This document shows, in pieces, positions 1,948-18,459 of a stretch of DNA of 64,000 bases. Where the stretch lies: positions 1,488,001 to 1,552,000 of the forward strand of contig CM057067.1 in the NCBI GenBank assembly GCA_029945375.1. Reading direction: 5' to 3'. Below the pieces are notes generated by a model, which made no database searches, had not been told where the DNA came from, and was given only the letters and a program-made list of their open reading frames with translations. Position 1 is the stretch's first letter; each line of letters opens with the position of its first letter. Origin of the DNA: Agaricus subrufescens (taxonomy: Eukaryota; Basidiomycota; Agaricomycetes; Agaricales; Agaricaceae). The position numbers and the translations under genes were made by a program.

Positions 1948-3327
1948 TGTTACGGCCCCAGCCGTTTTACGCGTGAAAATCTACGTTTAATGCGGCTAGG
2001 TGTACGTATTAGACTCGAGAACGAGTAATCGATCACCCCGTTAGTACTGAGATCAGTCGAGGACATGTGTGAAGACAGGGAGACCTAGGGATCAGTCGAG
2101 ATTGCATCCGCGGTTCCTAGCAGGAAAACCGTACTGCTAGGGGAAATATAATCGCGTTCGAGGACTTAAAATGAAAGTCTCGAGACTGAGTCTAGGGAGA
2201 CTTTGCTGGGAATTATCATCGAGGTTGGCTATGGGATGGCTCGAGGACTTAGCGAAACGCGGTTCCTTCAGCAGACCTTATGCTAAACCGAAGCTATAAC
2301 TACTACCTGCCTAATAAGGAAAGGGCTAGGAAGTAGATGTCTTACACATGTCGAGATTGAATTAACCTGAAGCGAGACTGTTGGAATTGTCGGTCGAGAC
2401 TCTGGATCAGGCAGTAATAGTGATAATCTCGAAGCAACTAAGGGCGAGATAGAAGTGTGGCTTAATCGAGGACATCTTATCGACGGGATAATCAGTGGGT
2501 GGTGCACCTCGAGAGTTTCTAGACTAGGGTCTAGGGTTAGAAGCTCGTTAGCCAATGAGGAGTGGAAGATTAGGCAAGTGCGATGTTCGGTCGAGGAGAC
2601 TGAATAGTCGAGACTGTTGATTGGTGGAGAAAGATGAGTCGAGGAGACTATACCCATTCAGTGCTGGATACGGACTTGGTTATCTGTTTCATATTTGTTT
2701 ATTTTGTCTCAGTTTTTTATTGTGTATCGTATATAGTCGCCAGTCGAGGACGAGGTTCGGGATCGAATCTTTGCCCAAGCGCTGTGCGAGTGAAATCGAG
2801 TTTGGTTAAACTTCGCAGTGTTCTAAGCATTTCTTAAGTTCTTTCTCGACTCGGAAGGTCTTGTGTTCTGCTCGAGAGAGTATCTTCACTGGTCTAATAG
2901 GATCGTGATAGCATTCGGTGCTAGCTCGACTTGTCTTGCAGTCTGTCTCGAAGCGCGAAGGCAGGTCAAGGCTCTCCGAGTTTGTTGAGGCATCACTAGG
3001 GCGGATTCGCTACCCCTCCTAGATAGGTGTCTAACCCATTCTATTGAGGACAGTCGTCGCGAGCTTAGCCACTCGTCGCGAAGGTTCTAATCGAAACGGC
3101 ATAGGTCTGGAAGAGGTTTCTATTCAGTCGAGACTTGTTTCACATTTCTATTCTACCCCTATTTTCATTTAATACTTAATCGAGACGCTTACTTTCACTT
3201 TCTTTCTGATTTATTCTCCCCACGAACCGCACTCGAGACTCGGTGTAATTCAAAGGGTTGCATTCGCATTCGATTTTATATTTTTTTATATTTTATTTTC
3301 CATATTCACACCGATCTAGTCTCTTCA
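1948..3327 (+). repeat. 5' LTR
   Basis: A 1380 bp direct repeat of 15761–17138, starting TGTTACGGCC and ending GTCTCTTCA. It contains about 29 TCGA tetramers by eye against roughly 5 expected for random sequence of this length. An AT-rich, TATA-like tract lies near its 3' end (about 3268–3300). Small ORFs inside it occur in both LTR copies and are not credible genes. Confidence 0.95.
2116..2141. other. LTR hairpin (8-bp perfect stem)
   Basis: CCTAGCAG at 2116–2123 and CTGCTAGG at 2134–2141 form a perfect inverted repeat with a 10-nt loop. The same structure is kept in the 3' LTR at 15929–15954. It could be a protein-binding site or an RNA hairpin. The role is unknown. Confidence 0.6.
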
Positions 3328-3329
3328 TC

Positions 3330-3345
3330 TGGAGCCCACCGCGAG
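3330..3345 (+). other. Primer-binding-site candidate
   Basis: TGGAGCCCACCGCGAG begins two bases after the 5' LTR, where minus-strand priming by a tRNA 3' end (complement of CCA) is expected. It does not fit the initiator tRNA-Met found in this window. The priming tRNA was not identified. Confidence 0.6.
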
Positions 3346-3455
3346 AGGAGTTTCAGATTGAAAGTGATTAAGTTTTTCAGAGTTTATTTTGTTCGAGCCT
3401 TTGTGATACAGCTCGAAAGAGGTGGTCTAGGAAAGGACAAAGGACAGGAGCGTAG

Positions 3456-5594
3456 TCTCGGAGAAAACTGGAGCGAAAAGGGAAATCAGGGAGGGCTACT
3501 TCGAACTCGCAGGCCTCAAGCCTCATTCCCATCCCCGAGGATCCAGATTTAGCGTTGAAGCGAGCTAGGGAAGAGAAGCGAAGAGAAAAAGGAAAGGAGA
3601 GAGAAGAGAGTCAAAGGTTAGAAGTCGAGACAGGAGTCGAGCCCGAATTTACGCGCAAAGTGTGGGGAGTTCCTACCGAGGGAGCATCGGACGATACAGA
3701 GTGTAACCCGTTTCTGGAAAGGCGATTAGAGAGTTCATTTGGGAGTTCTGATCAGTCGAGATTGGAAGTTCCAGGGGGCTTTATAATTGGATCAGCCAGT
3801 CCAAGTAGACGAGCAGTCGCACCTCGTATTCAAGTGCCAGTAGTACCTAGGGAGGGTTTTCCACTTCCTTCCGCGAGTTCCGTCAGTCTCGGAGAATCAC
3901 CGTTCACTCGACAGTCAGGGGGATCACCAGCTACCAGTTTGGCTTTTAATCCACCAGCTCCGAGTTTGTATCAACAACAACTGAAAGACATTTTTCATCC
4001 GGAGGAGTCTGCGCCCTCGGAATTTGAAAAATTATCCGCGACTCAGCCTATCTCTCCCTCGACTTCGTCCTCGAGTGCCGCAGCCAGTGTTTCAGTAACC
4101 GCGGCCCCTACAAGGTCCCCTCAAGCTAAAAGAACATCGGCTCCGAGCCAGCCTTCTGTACAACCGAAACCCCCTACAAATCCACCACCACCAGCAGCAA
4201 GACCGAGAATGTCTAGAAGGGAAATGCCTGCGCCGATGACGGCTGGCGCGCCAAAATGGGAGGGTGATGTAGATGCATTACCGGATTTTATTTGGCGCCT
4301 CGACCAGACTTGTGAATCGGTCGCGTTGACAGATGAGAACGAGAAGATGAAGTGGGCGTTGGCCTACGTTCCGCACGACATTAGAATGGAATGGCTGGCC
4401 ATTCCAGAGTCCGCGGGAAGATGGAGCGACTTTAGAAAGGCGCTCGACTCAGAATACCCCGAGCTTGTAGAAAAAGAAGCAGGCTCGGTGGGAGCTTTAA
4501 AGGATTTGTGTTCGAGATTCCGCGTTATCACTTTGGCCGAGGAGTCGCGACTGTTATCTTTCAGGCGTAAATTCCAAGTCATAGCTGAAAAATGTTTGAA
4601 GCCTCCTGCGCTTATCTCGAATAGAGAGATAGTCGAGGCGTTTGTGTCGTCTCTCGACTCGACATTTAGGGACCAGCTAAATATAAGGCTAGCTCTGAAT
4701 GGAACGTTGAGGAATGCCGGCTCGAATGTCCAGACTAGAAACGAGGATCCGTATGATTGGAAAGAAGTAATCTCGAAAGCTGTGGAGCTAGTAGGAAGCA
4801 AAAATCTTGTTAGGTCTAGCGACTCGACTGTCGAGAAAGCTGCCTCGAAGGCAAGGGGCCCGGCGAAGCGCGAGATGACAGCCGCGGTTCAGGGATCGGC
4901 AGATGTAGAAGCTATCCGTCAAGAAATGCGACAAGAGATGAATGTGATGAAGGATTTATGGATGACGCAGCAGAAGAGTTTACAGGGGAGTCTCGACTCA
5001 TTGAGATCGAGTTTCACTACCCAAGGATCGAGACCGCCAGATAACTTTCCTCCGCGTCCGAGACCACCTTTCCAAAGTAATTATACACCAGAAGGTCGTC
5101 AAGGATGTTTCTATTGTGGCGAGGACCATAGATGGGCAACCTGCTCTTATAAGATGCAAGATGAGAAGGATGGAAAGATTAAGACGGACGGTAACAAGAT
5201 TCGGTTCTCGAATGGTGCAGCAATTCCGCGGGAGGCAGGGTTGAATATCCGAGAGTGTGTTAGGAAATTTATGCCTACTACGGTGGCGTCCTGGATCTAT
5301 GAACCAGCAGACGAGGAGCCGGATACGGGATATATAGGTCCTGTTTATGAGAATCCGCCGACCATTCTGAAGAGAGAGGAAGGGATCAATAAAAAAGATC
5401 TCGAGTTAGAAAGTTTGAAAGGGAAGATTGCTGGAATGGAGGTCCTACTGCACAAAATACCAGACGCGACGGGTAGTTCTGGACAGGGAGACTCCGAGAC
5501 AGTAGTCGAGAGCGAAGATGATAGTGAGGAGGCACTCTTGAGAAAGTTATCGAGTTTGCTTTCTGCCGCTAAGGAGCAGGGCTCGGTTTTTTAG
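3456..5594 (+). CDS. Gag polyprotein of the LTR retrotransposon
   Basis: Capsid/nucleocapsid precursor that would package element RNA in cytoplasmic particles. The open frame runs from just after a stop near 3453 to TAG at 5592–5594. Its first half is Ser/Pro-rich and probably disordered. A helical gag-like region follows (about 4250–4800, beginning near WEGDVDALPDFIWRLDQTCE). The zinc knuckle near 5106 is CFYCGEDHRWATC, spaced C-x2-C-x3-H-x4-C, one residue shorter than the standard C-x2-C-x4-H-x4-C. The first in-frame ATG is only at 4209, although gag-like sequence is open upstream of it. The true start may have been lost, may be non-AUG, or may lie in another frame. The stop sits on a T6 run where the protease frame takes over by −1. 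Confidence 0.85.
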   Translation, partial: SRRKLERKGKSGRATSNSQASSLIPIPEDPDLALKRAREEKRREKGKEREESQRLEVETGVEPEFTRKVWGVPTEGASDDTECNPFLERRLESSFGSSDQSRLEVPGGFIIGSASPSRRAVAPRIQVPVVPREGFPLPSASSVSLGESPFTRQSGGSPATSLAFNPPAPSLYQQQLKDIFHPEESAPSEFEKLSATQPISPSTSSSSAAASVSVTAAPTRSPQAKRTSAPSQPSVQPKPPTNPPPPAARPRMSRREMPAPMTAGAPKWEGDVDALPDFIWRLDQTCESVALTDENEKMKWALAYVPHDIRMEWLAIPESAGRWSDFRKALDSEYPELVEKEAGSVGALKDLCSRFRVITLAEESRLLSFRRKFQVIAEKCLKPPALISNREIVEAFVSSLDSTFRDQLNIRLALNGTLRNAGSNVQTRNEDPYDWKEVISKAVELVGSKNLVRSSDSTVEKAASKARGPAKREMTAAVQGSADVEAIRQEMRQEMNVMKDLWMTQQKSLQGSLDSLRSSFTTQGSRPPDNFPPRPRPPFQSNYTPEGRQGCFYCGEDHRWATCSYKMQDEKDGKIKTDGNKIRFSNGAAIPREAGLNIRECVRKFMPTTVASWIYEPADEEPDTGYIGPVYENPPTILKREEGINKKDLELESLKGKIAGMEVLLHKIPDATGSSGQGDSETVVESEDDSEEALLRKLSSLLSAAKEQGSVF
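5586..5594 (+). promoter_or_regulatory. gag–protease −1 frameshift site (candidate)
   Basis: Gag ends GTT TTT TAG on a run of six T. The protease frame is −1 relative to gag and is open straight across this point (TTT TTA GGA). Slippage of tRNA-Phe on the T run next to the stop codon would fuse the two frames. Confidence 0.55.
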
Positions 5595-6718
5595 GACGTC
5601 CGGTGACGAAGCCGGTCTCTGGAAAACGGGTTAGTTTCAGAGGTATTAAGGCGACCGAGGACGATTTTAGGAAAGAGAACCCGGGAGAAAAACAGAAAAA
5701 TAAAAAGAAGGAAGTAGTCGAGGCAAAAGAGACCTCGTCTACGAGAGTCGAGAAGTTTCCTTATAGGAAGGTACCAGGGTTGAAAGCGGTAGTAGAAGTT
5801 CCGCCACTACCCGCCAAGTATTTCAAGGAGAATAAAAAGGGACCGGTGTATAAACACCAGACTAAAGTCGAGGAGGGTGTGGACGTAGCGGAACTTTTAT
5901 CGAGGTTTGAAGGGAATCATATAACGATCACGCAGAAGGAACTTCTGGCGTTAGCCCCTCGACTACGAGAAGCCATGAAGGGACTCATCTCGAAAAAGAG
6001 AGTACCTACTGGTGAAGTATCAGTCATCGAGGAGGTAGTGGCAGAGGTACCGGAGATAGTCGAGACGGAAGAAAACACCGACTCGGAACATGAGGAAGGC
6101 GGATCCTGTAGAGTCATTGATGTAAATATATTAATGAGTACTGGGGGACCAGTCGAGACTAGTGGGATCGAGGATATGTGTACAGGGAAAGACCCGGTGC
6201 TGCAATTGTTGACTCGATACTCAGCAGAAGAGTCGAGGACGATGATATTTGCGATAGCAGAGCAGGATCGTCTCTCAGCAAAGGATGTAGCTGAATTAAC
6301 GGTCATTCCAACACTTATTAATGGTGTCCGAGAGGAAGAGGCACTGTTAGATAGTGGTTCACAAGTTGTGATGATGTCAAGGGAGGCTGCCGCGGACTGT
6401 AAACTCAGTTGGGATCCGAGCTTGCAAATTAACATGCAATCGGCCAACGGGCAGGTGTCTCGGACGTGTGGTCTAGCCAGGAATGTACCATTTACCTTAG
6501 GGGATCTGACAGTACAACTCCAGGTGCACGTAGTCGAGAAGGCACCGTATCGAGTCTTACTGGGCCGTCCTTTCGACTTGGTTACAGCAAGCGAGGTCGT
6601 AAATCATCAAGACGGAAGACAGTATCTTAATTTGAAAAACCCCGAGACTAAAGCCTCGACGTGTATTCCGACTTATGGTCGAGGACAACTTCCCTCTCAG
6701 CCGGCAGTAAATTTTTAA
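5588..6718 (+). CDS. Retroelement aspartic protease domain
   Basis: Pepsin-like retroviral protease that would cleave the Gag-Pol precursor. The frame is −1 to gag. Its first half is Lys/Glu-rich linker sequence. The catalytic motif is LLDSGSQ, with the Asp codon at 6350, followed by hydrophobic strands and the flap-side and C-terminal LLGRPFD motif typical of Ty3/gypsy proteases. There is no convincing ATG at its beginning, which supports expression by frameshift from gag rather than independent initiation. The frame ends at TAA 6716–6718, directly after a canonical slippery heptamer. Confidence 0.85.
   Translation, partial: FLGRPVTKPVSGKRVSFRGIKATEDDFRKENPGEKQKNKKKEVVEAKETSSTRVEKFPYRKVPGLKAVVEVPPLPAKYFKENKKGPVYKHQTKVEEGVDVAELLSRFEGNHITITQKELLALAPRLREAMKGLISKKRVPTGEVSVIEEVVAEVPEIVETEENTDSEHEEGGSCRVIDVNILMSTGGPVETSGIEDMCTGKDPVLQLLTRYSAEESRTMIFAIAEQDRLSAKDVAELTVIPTLINGVREEEALLDSGSQVVMMSREAAADCKLSWDPSLQINMQSANGQVSRTCGLARNVPFTLGDLTVQLQVHVVEKAPYRVLLGRPFDLVTASEVVNHQDGRQYLNLKNPETKASTCIPTYGRGQLPSQPAVNF
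6709..6718 (+). promoter_or_regulatory. protease–pol −1 frameshift site A_AAU_UUU
   Basis: In the protease frame the bases read (gt)A AAT TTT TAA. A AAT TTT has the canonical X XXY YYZ form for −1 slippage, is in the correct phase, and abuts the stop codon. Slipping back one base gives AAA TTT TTA AGT, which is exactly the reverse-transcriptase frame. Confidence 0.7.
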
Positions 6719-9700
6719 GTCGCCTCGAGGATTCCGACGAGTGGGATGGAGGAGAGGTGGCTTGTATAATTGAAGCGGATAAAAATGGAGAAGCTAGTAT
6801 AACGGAGTATTTGCCTATCGAGACTGAAGCATATACTACGGATGAGCTCAAACTTTTATATCTAGCAAAGAGCTTGGAAAGAAAAGGGGACTCGGATGAG
6901 AAAAAGGCATTTGAGCAGTACCTGAATATACTGTTGAGACCACACGACTTGAGAGATAGATCAGTCGCGGTGGAAGAGTTGGAGGAACCAGGGGATCCTC
7001 GAGAGTTAGTGCATTGTCTGGCAAAGAAGTATAAGCCAGTCGCGCTGAAAGTCAGGCCTGTCCTAGGAGAAGTACCGGATAAATTTCGAATTATTAGAAA
7101 TATTATCGGGGATCCTCTAAAAGATATGCCGGAGCTACCGAGGAGGCCGTCCGAGTTCGTACCGACGGGAAGATATACCGAGGAGCGAATGTTAAAGATG
7201 GATAAAGCGCATAGTGATGGGTTTCTATGGCCCGAGGAGGCTAAATTGATGCATTGGTTAGTCGCGGCGCAAAATGAAGCGTTCGCGTGGGACGACTCGG
7301 AGAGGGGGAGCTTCAAGAAAGAATATTTCCCTTCCGTCGAGATTCCTACTGTGCCTCATACACCTTGGGTTTTGAGAAACTTAAGAATCCCACCTGCGGT
7401 TTATGATGAAGTATGTAGGATCATCCGGAGAAAGATCGACGCGGGAGTATATGAACCCTCGAATGCGTCATATCGGTCGAGATGGTTCTGTGTGATTAAA
7501 AAGGATGGGAAGAGTTTGCGCCTAGTGCACAGTCTCGAACCTTTGAACGAGGTTACGATCGCGCACTCGGGGCTACCACCTGTGACGGAGGAGTTGGCCA
7601 TGCATTTTGCGGGTCGAGCCTGTAATGGGATACTCGATTTGTATGTGGGTTACGACGAAAGAGAAATCGCCGAGGGTTCGAGGGACCTAACGACATTCCA
7701 GACGCCGTTCGGGGCCTTACGCCTGGTTACCTTGCCAATGGGATGGACTAATTCTGTGCCGATCTTTCACGAGGATGTGACTTACATTCTCCGAGACGAG
7801 ATTCCCGAGTTCACATTGCCATATATAGACGATGTGCCAATTAGGGGCCCCGCGACTAGATATGAAAACGCCGAGGGAGTACCGGAAGTCTTGCTTGATA
7901 ATTCGGGGATTAGAAAATTCGTGTTCGAGCATATGGAGAACGTGAATCGTATTCTACAGCGAATGAAGTATGCTGGGGGAACGTTCTCGGGACCTAAAAC
8001 GATGATATGTGCGGATACAGTAGTTATCCTAGGATTCGAGTGTTCATATAAGGGGCGAAAGCCGAAAGCGGAAACGATCGAGAAAATTTTGAATTGGGGT
8101 GACTGTGAAAACACTACTGACGTCCGAGCTTTCTTGGGGACGGCGGTAATGTGTAGGCATCACATTCGAGATTTTGTTATGAAGGCGGTTCCATTGTATA
8201 ATCTTTGCAAGAAGGGAGTTACCTTCGAGTGGGGCGCGATTGAGAAAGCGGCTCAGCTCGAGATTAAAGAAGCTATCCGAGACTGTTTTCATACGAGGAA
8301 TCCGAGGTTTCCGAGTGAGCAGCCGATTGTCTTAGCTGTGGACTCATCTTGGAGGGCTGTTGGGTATTACCTGTATCAGCGAGACGAGTTGGAGCCAAAA
8401 ATAATTCATTATATCAAGTTTAATTCGATATTAATGGATCCGAGGCAACAACGATATTCTCAACCAAAGTGAGAGTTAGTGGGATTGCGCATGGCGCTCG
8501 AGGAGGAGAATTATTTGCTTCGAGGGTGTCGAAATCTCATAGTCGAGACTGATGCGAAGTACTTGCATGGAATGTTAAACAACGCCGGCAAGTTACTCAG
8601 CGCAACTGTGAATCGTTGGGTGGTTTATATTCGGACTCATTTCCACTTCACATTGGTTCATCGAAAGGGAAAAGGTTTTGGGCCTGATGGATTGTCTCGG
8701 AGGAAATGGTATCCTGGAGATAAAGCGACTCGACAGTATGATGATGGGTCAGACGATGACGGGGAAGAGATCGAATTGGTTAAGGAGAATGAGGGAGAAG
8801 AGGACCCTCTACCGATAGATGACTTCGTCGAGGAAATCGATGATAGGAAAGGTTTCTTTGCTGAAGTGATAGCAGTGGACCATAGTTATCGATTGGACCT
8901 CGACTTCGCAAGAAAGTGTCTGGAGGCGGAAATAGCTGAGAAGCGACGATTATCTAATGATCGAGACGTTGCTGAACCGGTTCGAGTATTCCTCGGGAAA
9001 ATGATCGAGGAAGAAGAACAGGCGGTAAATGAAGAAAACGGTCGAGATGGTTACGATGAGGATCGCAGAACTATTGCGGCTCGTGAACAGGACAGTCGGT
9101 TAGAAAAGATCCGAGACTGGATTGTTCATCGAGTGGAGAGATTACCAAAAGATCGACTATCGGTCGAGGAGGCGAAATTGTCAAGAGCGGCCTCGAACTT
9201 CTGGTTAGACAAAGACGGGAAGTTATATCGTCGAAGGCCAGGGGATGATTATGCTCAGTTGGTGATCGAGATAGAGAATAGAATGGAAATCATGAGGGAA
9301 TGTCACGACAAATTGGGGCATCGAGGAGTGTATGCTACGTCGAGACTGATCAGTCAACGGTTTTGGTGGCCCGAGATGGAAGCCGACGTTAGCTGGTACG
9401 TTCGCTCGTGTCACTTATGTCAGGTGCGGCAAAAGATGGCAATGGAGTTGCCACCAGTGGTGACGCATACTCCCTCGATCTTTCAAGTTTTGCATGCGGA
9501 CACAGTACACATGACGCCTGCCTCGAATGGTTGTAAATACATTGTGCATGGCAGATGTGGACTTTCGTCATGGATGGAAGCGAAAGCGTTGAGAACCGAG
9601 GATGCAAAATCCATTGGTCAATGGCTATTCGAGGACATAATCTGTCGGTGGGGCAGTCTTGTGAAAATAGTCACAGACAATGGCTCGCCGTTTAGGAAAG

Positions 9701-10494
9701 CGGTGAGGTGGCTCGAAGATAAATATGGAATTAAGGGTGTAACGATCTCGCCATATAACTCGAGGGCTAATGGCATTGTCGAGAGGTCTCATTGGGATGT
9801 ACGGCAGATGTTATACAAGGCTACGGACGGTGAAGTAAAAAAGTGGTTTTGGCACCTACATCAAGTTATGTGGGCAGACAGAATTACTATAAGAAAGGGG
9901 ACAGGATGTTCTCCCTACTTCATGGTTACCGGGGCTCATCCTACGATACCTTTGGACGTAGTCGAGGCGACTTGGTTGGTGAAATATCCTGATCGATTTG
10001 TCGAGACTGCAGAGTTGATCGGTCTAAGGGCTCTCGCGCTGGCTAAACATGTTAAACATGTGGAGCAAATGAGGGCAAGGTTAACGAAAGAAAAAGTTGA
10101 TCGAGCTTTGAAATTAGAAGAAGATGCGAAAGCGAGGATTAAGGAATATGATCTGGAAGCAGGGAGCTTGGTCCTGGTGAAGAATTCCGCGATCGAGATG
10201 TCAGCCAATAGGAAAATGAAACCTCGATATCTCGGACCCATGGTAGTGGTTCGAAGGTTGAAAGGGGGAGCATATGTTCTTGCCGAGATGGATGGCTCGG
10301 TATGGCAGAATAAAGTGGCTGCATTCCGGGTTATTCCTTACCTGGCGAGGGAGAAAGTCGAGTATTCCGACGCAATCATTAAGCTGTTGGATACGAGTGA
10401 AGAGGAGTTAGAACTGTTAGAGGAACCAGTCGAGACTATTGATTTGGACGAGGAAGCTGATGAATCAGACGAGGAGACAGTCGAGGGAGACTAG
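6709..10494 (+). pseudogene. Pol: reverse transcriptase–RNase H–integrase, interrupted by one TGA
   Basis: One frame of 1262 codons containing a single stop (TGA 8470–8472). The RT fingers/palm include SRWFCVIKKDGKSLRLVHSL and the catalytic YIDD at 7822–7833. RNase H follows, with VLAVDSSWRAVGYYLYQ and, after the stop, a conserved [13 protein letters not shown] block and the GPDGLSRR terminus. Integrase has an H-H-C-C zinc domain (about 9298–9425), then the D-D-E core with Asp 9499, Asp 9676 and Glu 9781, 34 residues between the last two, and a C-terminal GPY/F-type module near [15 protein letters not shown] before integrase places it in Ty3/gypsy. The stop falls in [15 protein letters not shown], where relatives as I recall them have Arg, so CGA to TGA is likely. 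Otherwise the frame is intact. Confidence 0.9.
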
Positions 10495-10563
10495 AACCTT
10501 TGTTATTGAACACTAACTAGGAGAAAACTAGTCTCGGACAAGTACGCTATAACGATAAATAGC

Positions 10564-12174
10564 CTACTTGTCTGCCTTGTTCTGGAATCGTTTATCACGC
10601 TGCTCGAGGAGCTGAGACAAGAACTCGTACTCTCGCGCATAAAAACGATAGCGTGAAGTAGTGAATTCGAGTTGTTGAGCAGACTCGACGAGGGCGGTGG
10701 TAGTGGCCAAAAGTTTGTGCTGCAAGGCTTGATAGCTTGCGTCCGAGACTATGACGTGGGCGGCCTCGTTGGCCTCGACTGACAAAGAATGAATGTTGGA
10801 CACCAAGGTGTCGGCTGGGAAGAGAATTAGAAGAAGTGAAGGTGAAGGGAGGCTAGGACGCACCAGTAGCAGCCGAGATAACGTTCAAAATGGGTGGACG
10901 TTCCCGAGGCTGTAATCGGAGGGCGTTGAGATAGTGTTCTCGCTGGATTTCGGAGCCGGGAAGCGGCATGTAGAAAATGCGTACCGTTTGCGCTGTGCCT
11001 AGATATAGGTCCTAGGAGAAAAAGAAATAAGGTCCAAGAACGACAATTGGGCAGGAAAGCTTACAGTCGCGGACATAGAGTTGCTACGAGGGCGAGTCTG
11101 CATGATTTGATCTTGGTCGCCTAGGATAGTGGGCCCGGTGACGTTTTGAGTTATCGGCGCGGCACTCTGAAGAGGGGCAGGTTCAGGACCGTCCGAGGAT
11201 GGGGGAGGATTAGCCTCGCTGTCTACCTCCATCTGAGGGTGTGGATTAGCATGAATGAGTGCGAGATAAAGGCGCATACGTTTAGAGAAGTGGAAGGCTG
11301 GAGTAGTGTCGCAGTCTCGACTATAGTCTGGGACTCTACTTCGTCCTCGGAGGACTCTGAGCTGTCTGGAGGAAGTCGAGGGATAGTTCGACGCCTCTAG
11401 AATAGGCTGGTATAGAAAAGCGAGAGTGGAAAGTGGGCTGATCTTACCTTCTTGGCCGGAGGTTCAGAAGTGCCTCGACCGGTAGAGTCGTCACGTTCTG
11501 CAGCTGGCTTCGTAGGGGGACCTCGTTTGCCGTTTCCGAGATTGCGATCTACAGCGCTGAGCATAGTACACAACTCGTTGAAAACCGCGGGTTGCTTGTG
11601 ACCCTTGCCTCGGAAGTTAGCGTAGGATTCGTACATGCTTTTGGAACGAGCGAGGAGCCGTTGCGTTTCACTAGAAGACTGAGCAACAGTGTAGCGCTGC
11701 AGGGCCTGAAGAAGAGAAGTCTAGGACGTTGTGAGCATGGAATGATTCAGTCGAGGAGAGAAGGAGGGATACCAGAAAACTTCCCGCCGCCTCGAGTGGA
11801 CCAACCAAACTCTGGGCAACAGCAGGACTAGTGTGTCAACGATTGAAGCGGTGGAAGTAAGATGAGATTTCCGCGTCGAGGAGATGTACAGCTTCCTCGT
11901 ACGCCTGTTTAGCGGGAAGCGATGGTTCAGTAGGCATGGGAGTGGTATGGCAATCCTCGTCTGAAGAGCTACTGTCAAAGTAGGGCGAGATGCTATCGCG
12001 ATAGTGGGAGAGATTATAGGAAGGGGATAGACCCCTCCCTCGACCGAGACCACCTCGTAATAAACCCCTACCACGGCCTCGGCCGCCGCGTCCGCGACGG
12101 AAAGGATTGGAGTTGTCGTACGATCGAAGCTGATGCAAACTACAGTCGAGACACATGTTTATGCTGCGAGACAT
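10564..12174 (-). CDS. Antisense spliced gene 2 of the retrotransposon, unknown family
   Basis: Six exons on the minus strand all join in phase: 12174–11773, 11705–11448, 11396–11280, 11232–11065, 11011–10864 and 10814–10564 (448 codons). Introns are GT–AG and about 47–67 nt. The N-terminus has a short Cys pair region and an Arg/Gly-rich stretch ([10 protein letters not shown]) suggestive of nucleic-acid binding. The middle is Ser/Pro/acidic, and the C-terminus (from ADTLVSNIHSLSVEANEAA onwards) looks like a helical coiled coil. I do not recognise the family. One in-frame TGA (11838–11836) interrupts exon 1 after HRFNR. A CGA codon mutated at CpG would explain it, so this copy may be dead. 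The gene ends 70 bp from pol, tail to tail. Confidence 0.65.
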
Positions 12175-12865
12175 TCTACGGAGAACTTATATTCGTCGAG
12201 AATGCAGTCGAGGGTATGATCAAGAAAAAAATTTTTTTTCTGAGCGAAAGCGGTGATCGACGAGGACGTCTGTTTCCATAGTGAGGGGGAGAGCGAGCGT
12301 CTCGGATCGGTTTTAACTCAGAAATCAGGGGATTAAAACGAGTTCTATTAGGCGAGGTGTTGCGCCGAGGCAACGTTACAAGACGGGGCTACTCTAACAG
12401 AATCTGGGGCAGATCTATAAATAAGCTGTGATTGATCGGGTTATTTATAGGCTGGCGCAGAACGAGAACACAAGTGAGAGCGAGACCATATAGAGGGGGT
12501 GCGGAACACTTAAGGGACGTCGAGCCACTTATCGTCTCGGATCTAGAATTCACACTCAGTGGTAAAAGAGACAAATCGAGATAACATTGAGTGGGGGTTT
12601 TTGTAAACGAGACATGGTAGCACGATGCTACTACAGGATGAGGAAACAACAGAGCAAGAAGAGAACGAGACGAGAGAAGAACTAGTCTGAAGAGAAACGA
12701 GGGCTAACTACATGCAATTAAGAAGTAGTAAAGCACTAATGCGAGATAAGACTAGTGAGAAAAGTTCAAGAAAAAAGAAAGAAAAACAAATGTGCGAGGT
12801 GGATATGAAAGAAACACAAAACAGAGGACGACCGCCGGCGCCGATCGAGTACCCAATCAGCAAGC
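12175..12865. other. Spacer between the two antisense genes
   Basis: About 690 bp with no credible exon. It should hold the promoter and 5' leader of antisense gene 2 and the 3' end of antisense gene 1. The bases just upstream of the 12174 start are AT-rich, with an A6/T8 tract at 12225–12240. Confidence 0.5.
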
Positions 12866-15227
12866 CTACCCCTCGACGCCCTCTGGGAAGGCAGCCACGC
12901 GACCGTTGGTGTTGATGGGCGAGGTTGGCTGGAGGGAAGCCTCGACGTCCATAGCGCTAGGGGAGGTTGGCGAAAGAGGAGTCTGCATCGTCTGCCCGGA
13001 AGGCGTAGACGGGGCAGCTCCAGCAGGAGATCGAGCGGGAGAGTTGGGCTCGGTAGGGACAGCGGCCGGTTCGGGCACCATCATCGGAGGAACGCGAAGA
13101 TATTCGTCGAACGCCTTGGAGAATTGAGGGTTAGCGCGAGTAGATGGCGGAACGTCGGCCTTGTCGCAGGCTGCGACGTGACGGTCCCACCAGGAGGGTT
13201 GAACGAGAGGCTGCTGATCTTCGACGAGGAAGGGCTTCTCGCCCATCCACTCGCCGAAGCGGCGGAAAGAATCGTAAAGCGCGCGACCAGAGATGAGGAG
13301 GTTTTCGGAGCGATGTGGACCGGAGAGATTGTCGAGAGCGTCGACATCGTAAGCAGGGAGATCGGAGGCGGTGAGAGCGCGTTCGTCGTAGCTGACGATC
13401 TGTTCAGCGTCAGCAAGCAGCGTTTCGAACCCTTCGACGTCAGAGACGAGCTGGGCCTCGATCCAGAACTGGGGCTTTTTGTCGTGGTAGCGATACGCCG
13501 CGAGGAAATCAATGGCGCTCTCGACGACGAGTGAGCGGTAGTGGGAGACGGCAAGACTGAGCTGCCTCTCTAACCCTTGGATCTGGTAGCGGGCGACGTC
13601 GAGGTTGCGGTTGCGAATACGGAGGCCTAGATAAAGTCAGGAGAAAAACTTAAAAGAAAAAGAGTGGCAGGCGTACCATTGCCCGCGATGAAAGCAGGCG
13701 CGCGGCACAGCTCAGCTGCGAATTGACGAAGAGCAGGGGGCTTGGTTTTGCTGCAGTGGCCGGCGCGGTCATGGTCGCACTGGTCGCACTCGACGCCAGT
13801 GATGAGGGCATCGACGCGACGCTGCGCATCCTCAACGGATTCTCCACGGTGACGCTTGATGGGGTTGTCTGTGGTGCACACCAAGCGGAAGTTGCGCGTG
13901 CAGTTGAGACAATTGGCAGAACATGGGGAGTACTAAGGGTAAAATGATTGAGGAGATAAAGAGTGAAGAAGGTGCAAGGGTGCCATACCGGATCGTAGGA
14001 GACGGCGAAATGTGTAGCCAGGCCATCGAGATAAGGGGCGCCGGGTGCGAGACCAAGTTGACGAGTCAAGGAAGTATTAGTACGGACTAGGAAATGAGGG
14101 TTAGCAGGGAAAAGAAAAGGAATGGAGAGAGACGTACCGCGAGGTTCATCTGACCCGTCGGAGTCGACGGTTGCGGGGGTCTTGACCGATTTAGCTTGTT
14201 TGGAGCGCGTAGTTCGAGCACGAGTCGCGGGGGTAGTCTTGGCGGAAGGTGCGGGCTTACGACGAGAGGCAGCAGGTTTGCGTTTCTTGGAGGAGGACTT
14301 ATCCATGTCGACATCGGAATCGTCGAGTTCGTCCTCTTGAACCACTTCGTCTTCGTCGTCGCTTTCGCTCTCCTCGTCACTGACGAAGACGGGATCAGGC
14401 TCAGAAGACGAGGAGGAGGAGGAGATTTCCATGACGGCTTTGAAAGAGCCAGCCGACGCTTTACTGCTGGTGGTTTTTCGAGCAAGGCACTTGCCAGAAC
14501 CAGGGCGTGTAGAACGGGCAGGCGCTGGGGCTTTGATCAGAGAAAGCTTCTCAATTTTGGGGACTACCTCGGGGGTAGTTTTAGGCGAAGGAGATCGCAC
14601 ACGTTGACGTTTAGTGGCAGGAGGGTTGGTCTCGCCACGACGAGTAGATCCAGCAGTTGAACTAGCAGCGGAATTAGGCGGGACATGAACCTCCGCTAGA
14701 TTACGACGGGGAGCTTCTGATGCCACCCGAGCTGTGATTTGAGCGACCGCGATATTAGAAGCGCGTACGGCAGCAAAGAGACGGCGTGCCCGAGCTATGG
14801 GCCACTCACCAAGAGATCGGCGAGGAGGAGGCTGACGAGGAGTCCGAGCCGAAGCTGAGGAAGTCGAGGGAGCTGCGAGAGTGGCAGGAGTCAGAGGATG
14901 AGAACACGGAGAACGAAGAGAGACAGGTGGCGCACGTTGCGCTGGCGTCGGAGTACGAGCGATGGCTGGGAGAACGGAAGGCACCAGAGGGGTAGACGTA
15001 GGGCGAACGACCGAGGGCGAAGTCGGTAAGGTAGTCTGCGGAGTGTTGGACGGAGATGTGGACGACGATTCCGCCGGCTGCAGAGTCTTTCGGTAGGCCA
15101 GCAGAGCGCGAAAATGCTCGGAATGCCGGAGAAGGACGTCGGACGGAAAATGCGCACCCCATTCCGCCTTGTCGAGGATAGCGGCGATGGCTATCTCGGG
15201 GGGCAGCTGGGGAGGCGAGGAGGACAT
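12866..15227 (-). CDS. Antisense spliced gene 1 of the retrotransposon, Cys-cluster protein of unknown family
   Basis: Four exons on the minus strand join in phase without a stop: 15227–14138, 14086–13989, 13932–13677 and 13626–12866, predicting 734 aa. The start ATG at 15227 gives MSSSPPQLPPEIAIAAILDK. Residues up to about 360 are Ser/Pro-rich and disordered, with an acidic stretch (ESDDEDEVVQEDELDDSDVD) followed by Lys/Arg clusters that look like nuclear localisation signals. Exon 3 carries a cysteine cluster (PCSANCLNCTRNFRLVC, then ECDQCDHDRAGHC) resembling a small zinc-binding module. The last exon is helical (RNRNLDVARYQIQGLERQLSL...), contains a W/F-rich patch (FGEWMGEK, PSWWDRHV) and ends Pro-rich. 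I do not recognise the family. Nuclear action on nucleic acid or chromatin is an inference only. Confidence 0.75.
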
Positions 15228-15747
15228 GATGGGGAGAAAGAAAGCGAAGTGGAGGGGCAAGGTCTGCTTTTAATGGGGGACAGAGCTCGGCGTCGGTCGA
15301 AGATACCCTATTAGCGAGGTCAAGATCCGCAGGGTGGAGACGAAAAAGGCAAGACTCACTAGATCGCGCCGACATGCTATGTCAGCAGCGGTAGCGCGGA
15401 ATGAGCCATTGGCTGATGACGCCCCAAAGAAAAAATGAGGCGGGGTCAGCGAAATAAAAAAGAAGTTGAGGAAGTTTAAACCTCACTTTTGGAAAGTGAT
15501 CGGAAGATCGCGCTAAATTTAGTATCGCGTGGTCCGGGGCGATCAGAAAAGAAGCACGGCAATCGCCGTTCCGGGAGAACATGGCGGTAGTGATATTAAT
15601 AGCCGTCGGTGATGTCCGGAGCGGGAGGTCCACCACTGCCAAGGGCGAATGCTCGTCGAGGGGTGAAATTGAAGTCCAGCCAGACGTTGGGGATGATCAG
15701 ATTAGTTCCGAGATGGAGTCTGGTATGACTGAGGACAGTCGTTTCAT
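15228..15747. other. Promoter/leader region of antisense gene 1
   Basis: About 520 bp between the antisense ATG and the polypurine tract, without a convincing exon. A minus-strand promoter driving antisense gene 1 is expected here, or inside the 3' LTR. No clear TATA box was seen. Confidence 0.45.
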
Positions 15748-15760
15748 AGTGGGGGGGAGA
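15748..15760 (+). other. Polypurine tract
   Basis: AGTGGGGGGGAGA lies directly against the first base of the 3' LTR, the position of the plus-strand primer in LTR retrotransposons. Confidence 0.85.
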
Positions 15761-17138
15761 TGTTACGGCCCCAGCCGTTTTACGCGTGAAAATCTATGTT
15801 TAATGCGGCTAGGTGTACGTATTAGACTCGAGAACGAGTAATCAATCACCCCGTTAGTACTGAGATCGGTCGAGGACATGTGTGAAGACAGGGAGACCTA
15901 GGGATCAGTCAAGATTGCATCCGCGGTTCCTAGCAGGAAAACCGTACTGCTAGGGGAAATATAATCGCGTTCGAGGACTTAAAATGAAAGTCTCGAGACT
16001 GAGTCTAGGGAGACTTTGCTGGGAATTATCATCGAGGTTGGCTATGGGATGGCTCGAGGACTTAGCGAACGCGGTTCCTTCAGAGACCTTATGCTAAACC
16101 GAAGCTATAACTACTACCTGCCTAATAAGGAAAGGGCTAGGAAGTAGATGACTTACACATGTCGAGACTGAATTAACCTGAAGCGAGACTGTTGGAATTG
16201 TCGGTCGAGACTCTGGATCAGGCAGTAATAGTGATAATCTCGAAGCAACTAAAGGCGAGATAGAAGTGTGGTTTAATCGAGGACAGCTTATCGACGGGAT
16301 AATCAGTGGGTGGTGCACCTCGAGAGTTTCTAGACTAGGGTCTAGGGTTAGAAGCTCGTTAGCCAATGAGGAGTGGAAGATTAGGCAAGTGCGATGTTCG
16401 GTCGAGGAGACTGAATAGTCGAGACTGTTGATTGGTGGAGAAAGATGAGTCGAGGAGACTATACCCATTCAGTGCTGGATACGGACTTGGTTATCTGTTT
16501 CATATTTGTTTATTTTGTCTCAGTTTTTTATTGTGTATCGTATATAGTCGCCAGTCGAGGACGAGGTTCGGGATCGAATCTTTGCCCAAGCGCTGTGCGA
16601 GTGAAATCGAGTTTGGTTAAACTTCGCAGTGTTCTAAGCATTTCTTAAGTTCTTTCTCGACTCGGAAGGTCTTGTGTTCTGCTCGAGAGAGTATCTTCAC
16701 TGGTCTAATAGGATCGTGATAGCATTCGGTGCTAGCTCGACTTGTCTTGCAGTCTGTCTCGAAGCGCGAAGGCAGGTCAAGGCTCTCCGAGTTTGTTGAG
16801 GCATCACTAGGGCGGATTCGCTACCCCTCCTAGATAGGTGTCTAACCCATTCTATTGAGGACAGTCGTCGCGAGCTTAGCCACTCGTCGCGAAGGTTCTA
16901 ATCGAAACGGCATAGGTCTGGAAGAGGTTTCTATTCAGTCGAGACTTGTTTCACATTTCTATTCTACCCCTATTTTCATTTAATACTTAATCGAGACGCT
17001 TACTTTCACTTTCTTTCTGATTTATTCTCCCCACGAACCGCACTCGAGACTCGGTGTAATTCAAAGGGTTGCATTCGCATTCGATTTTATATTTTATATA
17101 TTTTATTTTTCCACATTCACACCGATCTAGTCTCTTCA
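15761..17138 (+). repeat. 3' LTR
   Basis: A 1378 bp near-copy of 1948–3327. Differences seen by eye include CG/TG or CG/CA changes (for example ctaCgttt/ctaTgttt and atCGatca/atCAatca) and a few 1–2 base indels. It ends CTCTTCA and is followed by GCGG. Confidence 0.95.
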
Positions 17139-17142
17139 GCGG
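17139..17142. repeat. Target-site duplication GCGG, right copy
   Basis: GCGG directly follows the CA end of the 3' LTR and matches 1944–1947. Confidence 0.85.
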
Positions 17143-18459
17143 CGACGCGAGGCTTTATTCGAGACATTTTCAAGTCTCGTTGTCGGCAAATAACCCAGAA
17201 GCACGTAAGCACATGCTGATGGCTTATGTCAAATTTCCTTTGGAACATTCCCGATTGTGAGATAAACCGGGTAAGCGCTTTTGTTGCGAAACAGAGTGAG
17301 TTGTGTCTTGTCTGTTGAAACTATGACCGGGATGATCGAGCCTCCAGGTGAGTGCTTCTCAATTTCCTTCTGTGGGATATCGGTCGCTGATGAGAAGACT
17401 GGAATAGTTGAAGGAACTCACCTGCATAGCCCACCACCACTTCGCTGTGTGCATATCGTGATACATTCGAATTGTTTTTGACTCGTCTGTATAGTGCTTT
17501 TCTGGAGTAAAGATCATATGCGGTGAGAGCCTGTTGTTATATAGCAGTGCCTGAATGCATTGAATGACATCTCGGAAATAGACATCACATTGTTCAGAGC
17601 CCACTACAACTTGATGACGAGTGAACGGAGGCCGCACATTCGGCAACTTTTCGTCAATGATATTGTTCAGTTCAACAGATGATTTGAAGGAGAGGCCCAA
17701 CTGTTTGGAAATCTATGGAGTATGATTTCGGTGAGTTGTTTACACAGTACCAGAGATATTTACATTCGCTTACCCCCTCGATGGACACCAGATCGGTGAA
17801 TGCAGTTGAACTCGGGCCACGCTCCTTTGCCCACCTCGCGAGCTCCCATTCCATCTTCGATGAGAATGGCATGTATATCTCATCCAAGTTTGATTCCCCC
17901 ATTCCCCCCCTTCGTTCCAATGTTCAAGACCATGTACCATTCCTGCATTGCCGGGAAATCGAGAAATGACCGGTGAGTCATATAACTTGCAACTTGCATC
18001 ATACACTCTGCATTGCGCTTCGTCCTCTGAGTCAGCTTCGACATCTTTGTCACTGTCATCAACATCAACTTGAAGTCGTTCTGGCTCGATGCTGTCAAGG
18101 TCACCAGAGTCATCGCTATCTTCATTTTCATGTTCATCGCTATCCGTGTCTGCAGTGGGTTCCCTTTTGTCTATGTCCATCTCCTCGCCTTCGTCATGAT
18201 CTTCACGAAGGTATGTGTGATAATCTCCAAAGATATCACCCGTTTCATCAAAAGCTAACATTGGCCTGTCAGAAGAAGCAACCACTATCATGGAAGAGAA
18301 CTTACACGCTGGTAGTCTGCCTGCCTCTACAGTACAATTTTCGCCAAGTTGTTTAGCTTGGCGTTCAAAATATTGCTGACATTGACGGTTTTTAGCACTT
18401 CGAAGATGACTCTGCAGCCCACGACGTCGGATGATGATTTTGCATGTGGGACAAATCAT
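17139..18459 (-). pseudogene. Plavaka-type transposase, N-terminal part (split by insertion)
   Basis: The 5' part of the same transposase as 522–1947. The protein begins with a C2H2-like finger (MICPTCKIIIRRRGLQSHLRS), then a long acidic region. Family blocks follow: PFSSKMEWELARWAKERGPS, the DVYFRDVIQCIQALLYN stretch, APEKHYTDDSK-like EKHYTDESKTIRMYHDMHT, then SIIPVIVSTDKTQLTLF and PVYLTIGNVPKEI. At least two introns are needed (around 17.7 and 17.4 kb). At 17231–17229 an in-frame TGA replaces the first Arg of the usual KEIRRKPS, and the next codon is CAT where CGT is expected, so the gene also carries probable CpG decay besides the insertion. It is separated by about 305 bp from a divergent gene on the plus strand. 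Confidence 0.85.

Follow-up and report, generated by a model that had tools for sequence, protein, structure and literature searches.

Two intron-bearing genes on the antisense strand of a Ty3/gypsy-type retrotransposon family in Agaricus subrufescens

Introduction

Long terminal repeat (LTR) retrotransposons are expected to lose introns, being copied from RNA. Here we analyse a stretch of 64,000 nucleotides of the Agaricus subrufescens genome (assembly GCA_029945375.1, contig CM057067.1, positions 1,488,001 to 1,552,000, hereafter "the window"), in which a Ty3/gypsy-type element carries two multi-exon genes, A and B, on its antisense strand between the pol stop and the 3' LTR. The closest described systems are plant gypsy elements with antisense open reading frames (ORFs) between pol and the 3' LTR ("aORF-3R"), namely Grande (gene23), RIRE2, Retand and PvRetro13, and in the case of Grande an upstream antisense promoter of its own and a nuclear product have been reported (PMC7264820; PMC11963269). 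The word "intron" does not occur in the main text of either paper. For fungi, one additional antisense gene, brtn, is cited for the Boty/BcGypsy1 element of Botrytis cinerea (PMC7264820; PMC8365987; PMC4227169). Among retroviruses, the human T-cell leukaemia viruses (HTLV) are described as having spliced, protein-coding antisense genes (hbz in HTLV-1, APH in HTLV-2/3/4), HBZ being nuclear and regulatory (PMC10186651), and Penelope-like elements are reported to spread intron-containing genes, for which an antisense template has been proposed (PMC3846280).

The locus resembles the plant aORF-3R elements in the place and orientation of its antisense genes and in their presence in most copies (PMC7264820; PMC11963269), but it is fungal and holds two antisense genes with eight introns between them instead of a single antisense ORF. 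The Retand ORFs carry a TRP28 domain, whereas neither A nor B gave a Pfam match to TRP28 (PF04195) or to the bZIP domain known from HBZ. Boty is likewise a fungal gypsy element with an antisense gene, although a single one, and its pol is described with a chromodomain (PMC4227169), for which the pol of the window gave no Pfam match. The likeness to hbz and APH is one of arrangement only, i.e., antisense, spliced, coding genes of an LTR retroelement; according to the account cited, each virus has one such gene with a promoter in the 3' LTR (PMC10186651), and no Pfam match links them to A or B. Penelope-like elements share with the present one the spreading of introns, but are described as another element class that frames host genes and has no fixed accessory pair (PMC3846280). 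A preliminary description of the locus, made from its letters alone, had named Grande and RIRE2 as parallels, which the literature bears out, and had been aware of no such fungal pair. In the open-licence literature searched, we likewise found no fungal LTR element described with two antisense genes that contain introns; brtn, a single antisense fungal gene, had been passed over. New here is the conserved multi-intron antisense pair, single antisense ORFs being already known in plant gypsy elements and in Boty.

Results and Discussion

Structure of the antisense gene pair

Both genes lie on the minus strand exactly where the preliminary description had placed them, between the pol stop and the 3' LTR (Table 1), and all eight introns that it had proposed are GT-AG (52, 51, 47, 53 and 49 nt in gene A; 51, 56 and 50 nt in gene B). 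Its length for gene B, 735 codons including the stop, also holds; gene A, which had been given 448 codons, has 453 from the first ATG or 447 from the second, again including the stop, and in the window copy its frame is interrupted by an in-frame TGA that had been overlooked. The corresponding codon is open in most other copies, but not in L022. The model of gene A was set from conservation between copies and replaces automatic splice-chain models, which were either not produced or over-split; its intron 1 was placed at 11772-11721 because the ends of this intron are kept in sister copies and in a second lineage of the family (lineage II, see below). The stop of A lies 69 nt past the pol stop. 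The preliminary description had called the sense strand of the A-B region mostly non-coding; sense-strand ORFs are present in it, the longest (241 aa) at 12809-13534.

The predicted protein A is rich in RG/GR dipeptides within its first 120 residues (14 in the lineage of the window, nine and five in the two others), has a KKR-type patch (KKRRR) at the intron 2 junction and ends in a conserved C-terminal block. Protein B consists of a long part rich in Ser, Pro, Thr and Ala, followed by a putative zinc-binding Cys/His cluster and a helical C-terminus. Six of the seven Cys/His positions in exon 3 are invariant in all 11 aligned loci, which represent three lineages, and the seventh is kept in 10 of the 11. 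For each lineage, one element shows TATA-like sequences, recognised by eye and with no control, about 45-60 nt upstream of the start codon of B.

Distribution and age of the pair

Copies were located by searching the own genome (44.65 Mb in 44 contigs, the window lying on contig C11) with exon queries of A and B, and a census of reverse transcriptase (RT) loci was assembled, 49 from 129 RT matches, some of them joined from pieces; RT matches outside the census were at most 33% identical or very small pieces. The census entries took up 23 of 28 and 22 of 30 B matches, and 23 of 29 and 21 of 41 A matches, the others repeating places already entered. At 36 of the 40 RT loci that are at least 73% identical to the window, both A and B follow downstream on the opposite strand, within 6.2 kb of the RT start. 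Homologs whose absence would have counted against the preliminary description thus occur inside other copies of the element in the same genome, in the same place and orientation. The position of the 3' LTR past the pair was verified for the window copy, and a 3' LTR was also observed at L067, L072 and L075. Among the remaining four loci, C5:3220308 has A only, and neither gene was found within 14 kb at C26, C2:3575010 and C5:19409; contig C26 ends about 5.8 kb past its RT start. Outside the 40 loci, a degenerate one (C8:339139, RT 53%) has both genes, and an 81% fragment (C12:982383) and two 58% fragments have neither.

At C2:3575010, A and B are found 32.7-34.2 kb further on, on the opposite strand (C2:3575010 to C2:3609952), and RT and pair may represent one element split by a large nested insertion. 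At 10.7-12.3 kb past C8:372512, one match each of A and B shares the strand of the RT; these we read as belonging to another, inverted copy. The region L073, which was found to flank a distant copy on its gag side, was rejected.

The pair is found in three lineages: lineage I with the window (RT 100%), lineage II (C13:215094 and C4:2639555, RT 89%) and lineage III (C1:231205 and 19 very similar loci, RT 77%). Protein A of the window is 44% identical to that of lineage II (6e-110) and 26% to that of lineage III (5e-25), and protein B is 47% identical over 366 aa (1e-100) and 28% over 198 aa (6e-24), respectively. Four of the five introns of gene A fall in the same alignment column in all three lineages and the fifth is shifted by one residue in lineage III, the phases being 0, 0, 0, 0 and 1 throughout. 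In gene B, all three lineages share, within one residue and in the same phase, the intron that precedes the conserved domain and the one that precedes exon 4; a further intron is confined to I and II, and both II and III have an additional one of their own. As both the pair and these introns are common to the three lineages, the pair with most of its introns predates the lineage split.

In the C13 element of lineage II (L071), intron 4 of gene A is GC-AG, versus GT-AG in the window and in L067. The acceptor of its intron 2 was chosen by frame and homology, which gives an open frame of 460 aa; an alternative acceptor was dropped, as it broke the frame.

The twenty copies of lineage III carry A and B together with an open pol frame of 1290 aa, and in all twenty the match to B exon 3 is 100% identical and that to A exon 2 98-100%. 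The score of the RT match is identical in 19 of these 20 loci (L053-L066 and six more). We read lineage III as a recent burst.

Coding signal and selection

Differences between copies of gene B concentrate at the third antisense codon position in all six copies tested (p 1e-8 to 1e-30). Pooled over sister copies (nine for the B exons; eight for A as far as covered, for introns and for the stretch between A and B), 12 of 15 exon indels are multiples of three, as are two of 29 in introns and 11 of 59 in the A-B interval; these counts include events common to related copies, which are hence not independent. They were taken from nine of 19 aligned loci, leaving out the degenerate or partly replaced L014, L015, L017, L019, L024 and L025, the overlapping loci L023 and L033, which represent one recombinant copy, and L029 and L030, which belong to lineage II.

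The preliminary description had proposed dN/dS, the ratio of nonsynonymous to synonymous divergence, below 1 as a mark of conserved homologs, and the values are mostly well below it. Calculated by NG86, skipping stop codons and gaps, over the part of B from 15136 downwards and over positions 12174-11369 of A, dN/dS lies at 0.16-0.29 in 14 of 16 pairs for B exons 1-4 (0.38 between the window and L029), at 0.09-0.27 in 15 of 16 pairs for B exons 2-4 (0.44 for L016-L018) and at 0.17-0.41 in 12 of 16 pairs for the covered part of A. Three A comparisons with L021 and L025 (0.67-0.80) were set aside because there is no gene A at those loci. The RT of the same family gave 0.07-0.22 in eight of 11 pairs, and dS was saturated in three. 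Copies in which the covered parts of both A and B are open exist, decay being otherwise common. On these sequence comparisons the pair A and B bears marks of purifying selection.

When the window is compared with the copy at C4:1100032-1107856 (L012, L042), synonymous divergence in B (0.22) is about twice that in A (0.10) and RT (0.10). B may therefore have a history different from that of A and RT, as recombination would give.

A duplicated polypurine-tract-like box

The 16-mer of the 3' polypurine tract (PPT) occurs, at two or fewer mismatches, at two places in the 64 kb (0.01 expected): beside the 3' LTR and in a box between A and B. This internal box precedes the start codon of A by about 100 nt in lineages I and II and by about 220 nt in lineage III. 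Of 18 lineage I rows, 16 contain its core, the other two (L021 and L025) lacking the region; both rows of lineage II and L067 contain it as well. In the whole genome, the pattern of the PPT-LTR junction was found at 29 places, versus none in a reversed control, and the internal box in its extended version, as seen in lineages I and II, at 13 places, all of them flanked by a match of A on one side and of B on the other, with none in the reversed control. Compared by eye upstream of the core, the internal boxes are more similar to each other across the three lineages than to the 3' boxes, so that both PPT copies look old.

The internal box may act as a central plus-strand primer. Such a primer is reported for Ty1 and HIV-1, and extra PPTs for Athila4, Calypso and the Sireviruses (PMC2829016), with which the present elements share a further PPT inside the element; unlike in those, here a single internal copy, separated by about 3.5 kb from the 3' PPT downstream of it, stands between two antisense genes. 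There is a substantial possibility, if short of an even chance, that the box is instead a control element (leader or promoter) of antisense gene A and no second primer at all, given its place upstream of the A start in three lineages and, in I and II, downstream of TATA-like sequences recognised by eye. Its core, however, matches the sequence that abuts the 3' LTR, which is necessarily the position of the PPT.

A proposed reversed accessory module and its alternatives

The window holds a Ty3/gypsy-type fungal element with a reversed module of two genes, with five and three introns, between pol and the 3' LTR. Very probably, A and B serve the element as nuclear accessory proteins, which would be made from antisense transcripts of this module. 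The position, orientation, coding signal, selection and intron conservation of the pair are seen directly in the compared sequences. We propose that A and B are transcribed from antisense promoters of their own on integrated DNA copies and that these transcripts are spliced in the nucleus. The sense genomic RNA would hold nothing but the reverse complement of the introns, which would be invisible to the spliceosome, and the introns would thus pass unspliced through each round of reverse transcription. That the introns of A and B persist because the sense RNA carries only their reverse complements had been argued in the preliminary description, and the five A introns kept in three lineages fit this explanation. 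That all A introns persist suggests in addition that packaging and reverse transcription of antisense mRNAs are rare events, as they would remove the introns. With less assurance we suggest that A and B bind nucleic acids in the nucleus and act on the element's RNA, DNA or chromatin as retroviral regulatory proteins do, this function being the least certain step of the proposal. The preliminary description had suggested that they could serve in nuclear export, defence against silencing or packaging, or that their transcripts could form double-stranded RNA with the genomic RNA. Between lineages, A and B retain 26-47% identity versus 77-89% for RT, a faster divergence that would be expected for proteins meeting host defences or partners.

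Five introns of A kept in position and phase while the protein fell to 26% identity indicate that antisense orientation can shield introns. If the proposal is true, a part of the split genes that annotations assign to fungal hosts could belong to retrotransposons as accessory genes, and the conserved, fast-changing A and B would be candidate regulators or counter-defence factors of fungal retroelements. It is conceivable, if rather doubtful, that backward-facing split genes are a long-standing strategy of this family and that the spliceosome-dependent module and the duplicated PPT form a retrovirus-like accessory region, independent of the HBZ-type and plant antisense genes. Such a module could be expressed only from integrated nuclear DNA, as packaged sense RNA cannot yield A or B.

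A number of observations weigh against the proposed accessory module. Neither A nor B has a Pfam match above chance or a relative among the sequences of the Protein Data Bank (PDB). For B, the protein database held no relative recognisable with one sequence (6520 candidates scored) or with a three-lineage profile (8000 scored), and for A one fragment was matched (P0001) among 8000 candidates scored. A Foldseek search with the model of B exon 4, which covers one exon at a mean pLDDT (predicted local distance difference test) of 57.5, gave 45 matches with a best E of 2.2 and was uninformative. The function of A and B is read from composition, i.e., the RG-rich part and basic patch of A and the Cys/His cluster and helical part of B, and their antisense transcription, splicing and translation are likewise predictions from the genome sequence. 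The codon positions of A are mixed, the third being highest in three of five pairs and the first in two, and the coding case for A leans more on homology and introns. Some dN/dS values are higher than those given above (0.54 for L016-L018 over B exons 1-4; 0.62 between the window and L016 for A), and exon 1 of B taken alone ranges from 0.26 to 0.67 in 16 pairs. At least one stop interrupts the covered parts of A or B in 12 of 13 lineage I copies, and in the window copy both A and pol are broken. Finally, none of the five RT loci at 44-52% identity has A or B; the regions downstream of four of them (L068, L069, L070 and L076) gave neither gene at E below 0.1, L068 and L069 holding other elements there. 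The pair is hence not general in gypsy elements.

The fragment P0001, an ORF of 225 aa on an environmental contig of 1132 bp, is 53% identical to A exon 1 over 32% of the query. The likeness stops at the position of A intron 1 and the ORF ends about a dozen residues further on, a boundary that we would read as a splice site; exon 1 of gene A thus probably exists in another organism too. A search of viral contigs with two peptide patterns of A found none, Rfam gave nothing at gathering scores, and a comparison of the A and B profiles (probability 0.3) did not reveal them as recognisable paralogs.

Three alternatives to a protein-coding accessory module have been considered, all of them improbable. 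The antisense transcripts could act as RNA, forming double-stranded RNA with the genomic RNA and feeding or blocking silencing, with incidental reading frames. Because of where they lie, any mRNAs of A and B would be complements of the sense genomic RNA, the 3' end of A may overlap pol, and RNA pairing has been raised for plant elements (PMC7264820). Selection acts on the protein, however, as seen in the third-position excess of B, the frame-keeping indels of exons, the invariant Cys/His positions and the homology across lineages, which makes an RNA role as the sole function unlikely; an added RNA role beside the proteins is possible.

Slightly less probable still is that A and B are host genes recently captured by one element copy through transduction. 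They do resemble ordinary fungal split genes, without a viral-type Pfam domain, and no RT was detected near eight of the B matches and six of the A matches. But their place in the element is constant across 36 loci and across three lineages, with which latter a recent capture is incompatible, and C8:639256, the only stray locus read on both sides, has a 3' LTR beside B (on its other side no element sequence was recognised). Five A and B queries against the own genome recognised no intact host paralog, with the limits that the stray matches were not all read and that distant relatives could escape. An ancient capture from a host is possible.

Least probable of all is a nested element, e.g., a DNA transposon inserted in reverse into an ancestral gypsy element, which would fit the opposite orientation and the two linked genes, but no inverted repeats of at least 14 nt flank the pair in window positions 10400-17200, the one 15-nt inverted pair of L067 has its second arm inside the LTR and does not enclose A-B, and neither A nor B has a transposase or RT domain.

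Anatomy and decay of the element

The LTRs end in TG...CA and the element is bordered by a 4-bp target duplication, GCGG, at 1944-1947 and 17139-17142, outside both LTRs; paired LTRs and a short target duplication are of the Metaviridae type. According to Pfam the order in pol is protease, RT, RNase H and integrase, as in Ty3/gypsy, with the protease and the integrase zinc domain above the cutoff and RT and RNase H under it. The gag-like ORF gave no Pfam gag match.

Table 1. Features of the element and its antisense genes in the window
Feature	Position	Strand	Remarks
Ty3/gypsy-type element, 15.2 kb	1948-17138	+ (sense)	LTRs 98.9% identical
5' LTR (TGTTACGG...TCTCTTCA)	1948..3327	+	98.9% identity to 3' LTR over 1381 aligned positions
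gag-like ORF	3456..5594	+	CCHC-like motif, by eye
Protease ORF	5573..6718	+	Asp_protease_2, 4.9e-10
RT and start of RNase H	6652..8472	+	RVT_1, 1.8e-4, under Pfam cutoff; ends at in-frame TGA
Remaining pol with integrase zinc domain	8473..10494	+	Integrase_H2C2, 5.6e-20
Antisense gene A	12174..10564	-	Exons 12174-11773, 11720-11448, 11396-11280, 11232-11065, 11011-10864, 10814-10564
Premature in-frame TGA in gene A, window copy	11838-11836	-	Frame not open here
Internal polypurine-tract-like box, CATAGTGAGGGGGAGA	12277..12292	+	One mismatch to the 3' PPT 16-mer
Antisense gene B	15227..12866	-	Exons 15227-14138, 14086-13989, 13932-13677, 13626-12866; ATG at 15227
Gene B exon 4, helical part	12869..13624	-	AlphaFold2 model, mean pLDDT 57.5; block means 63-89, residues 1-80
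Gene B exon 3	13677..13932	-	Putative zinc-binding cluster C-x(3-8)-C-x2-C ... C-x2-C-x6-H-C
3' polypurine tract	15745..15760	+	Abuts 3' LTR
3' LTR	15761..17138	+	LTR alignment; outer GCGG repeat

The pol frame of the window is broken by the TGA at 8470-8472. Among seven other copies this site is stop-free in four, the identical TGA stands in one, and two gave no answer; copies with the RT match inside an open frame of 1280-1299 aa exist in the genome. The element adjoins an ORF (522-1946) for a Plavaka transposase (PF18759, 4.9e-49) and probably sits inside this transposase gene (522-1946 and 17139 onward).

When the antisense region of the window is compared with L010 and other copies, 20 of the 22 differences within one near-identical pair prove to be CpG transitions; in nine less decayed copies, TGA accounts for 23 of 24 stops. 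Together these observations suggest decay at methylated CpG. The recombinant copy L023 (C2:4060140-4063730), compared in blocks of 250 bases, is 99.6-100% like L010 over 11601-12850 and 97.2-100% like L013 over 13101-15100, the switch lying at the window equivalent of 12851-13100; this mosaic points to copy-choice recombination or gene conversion between copies of the element.

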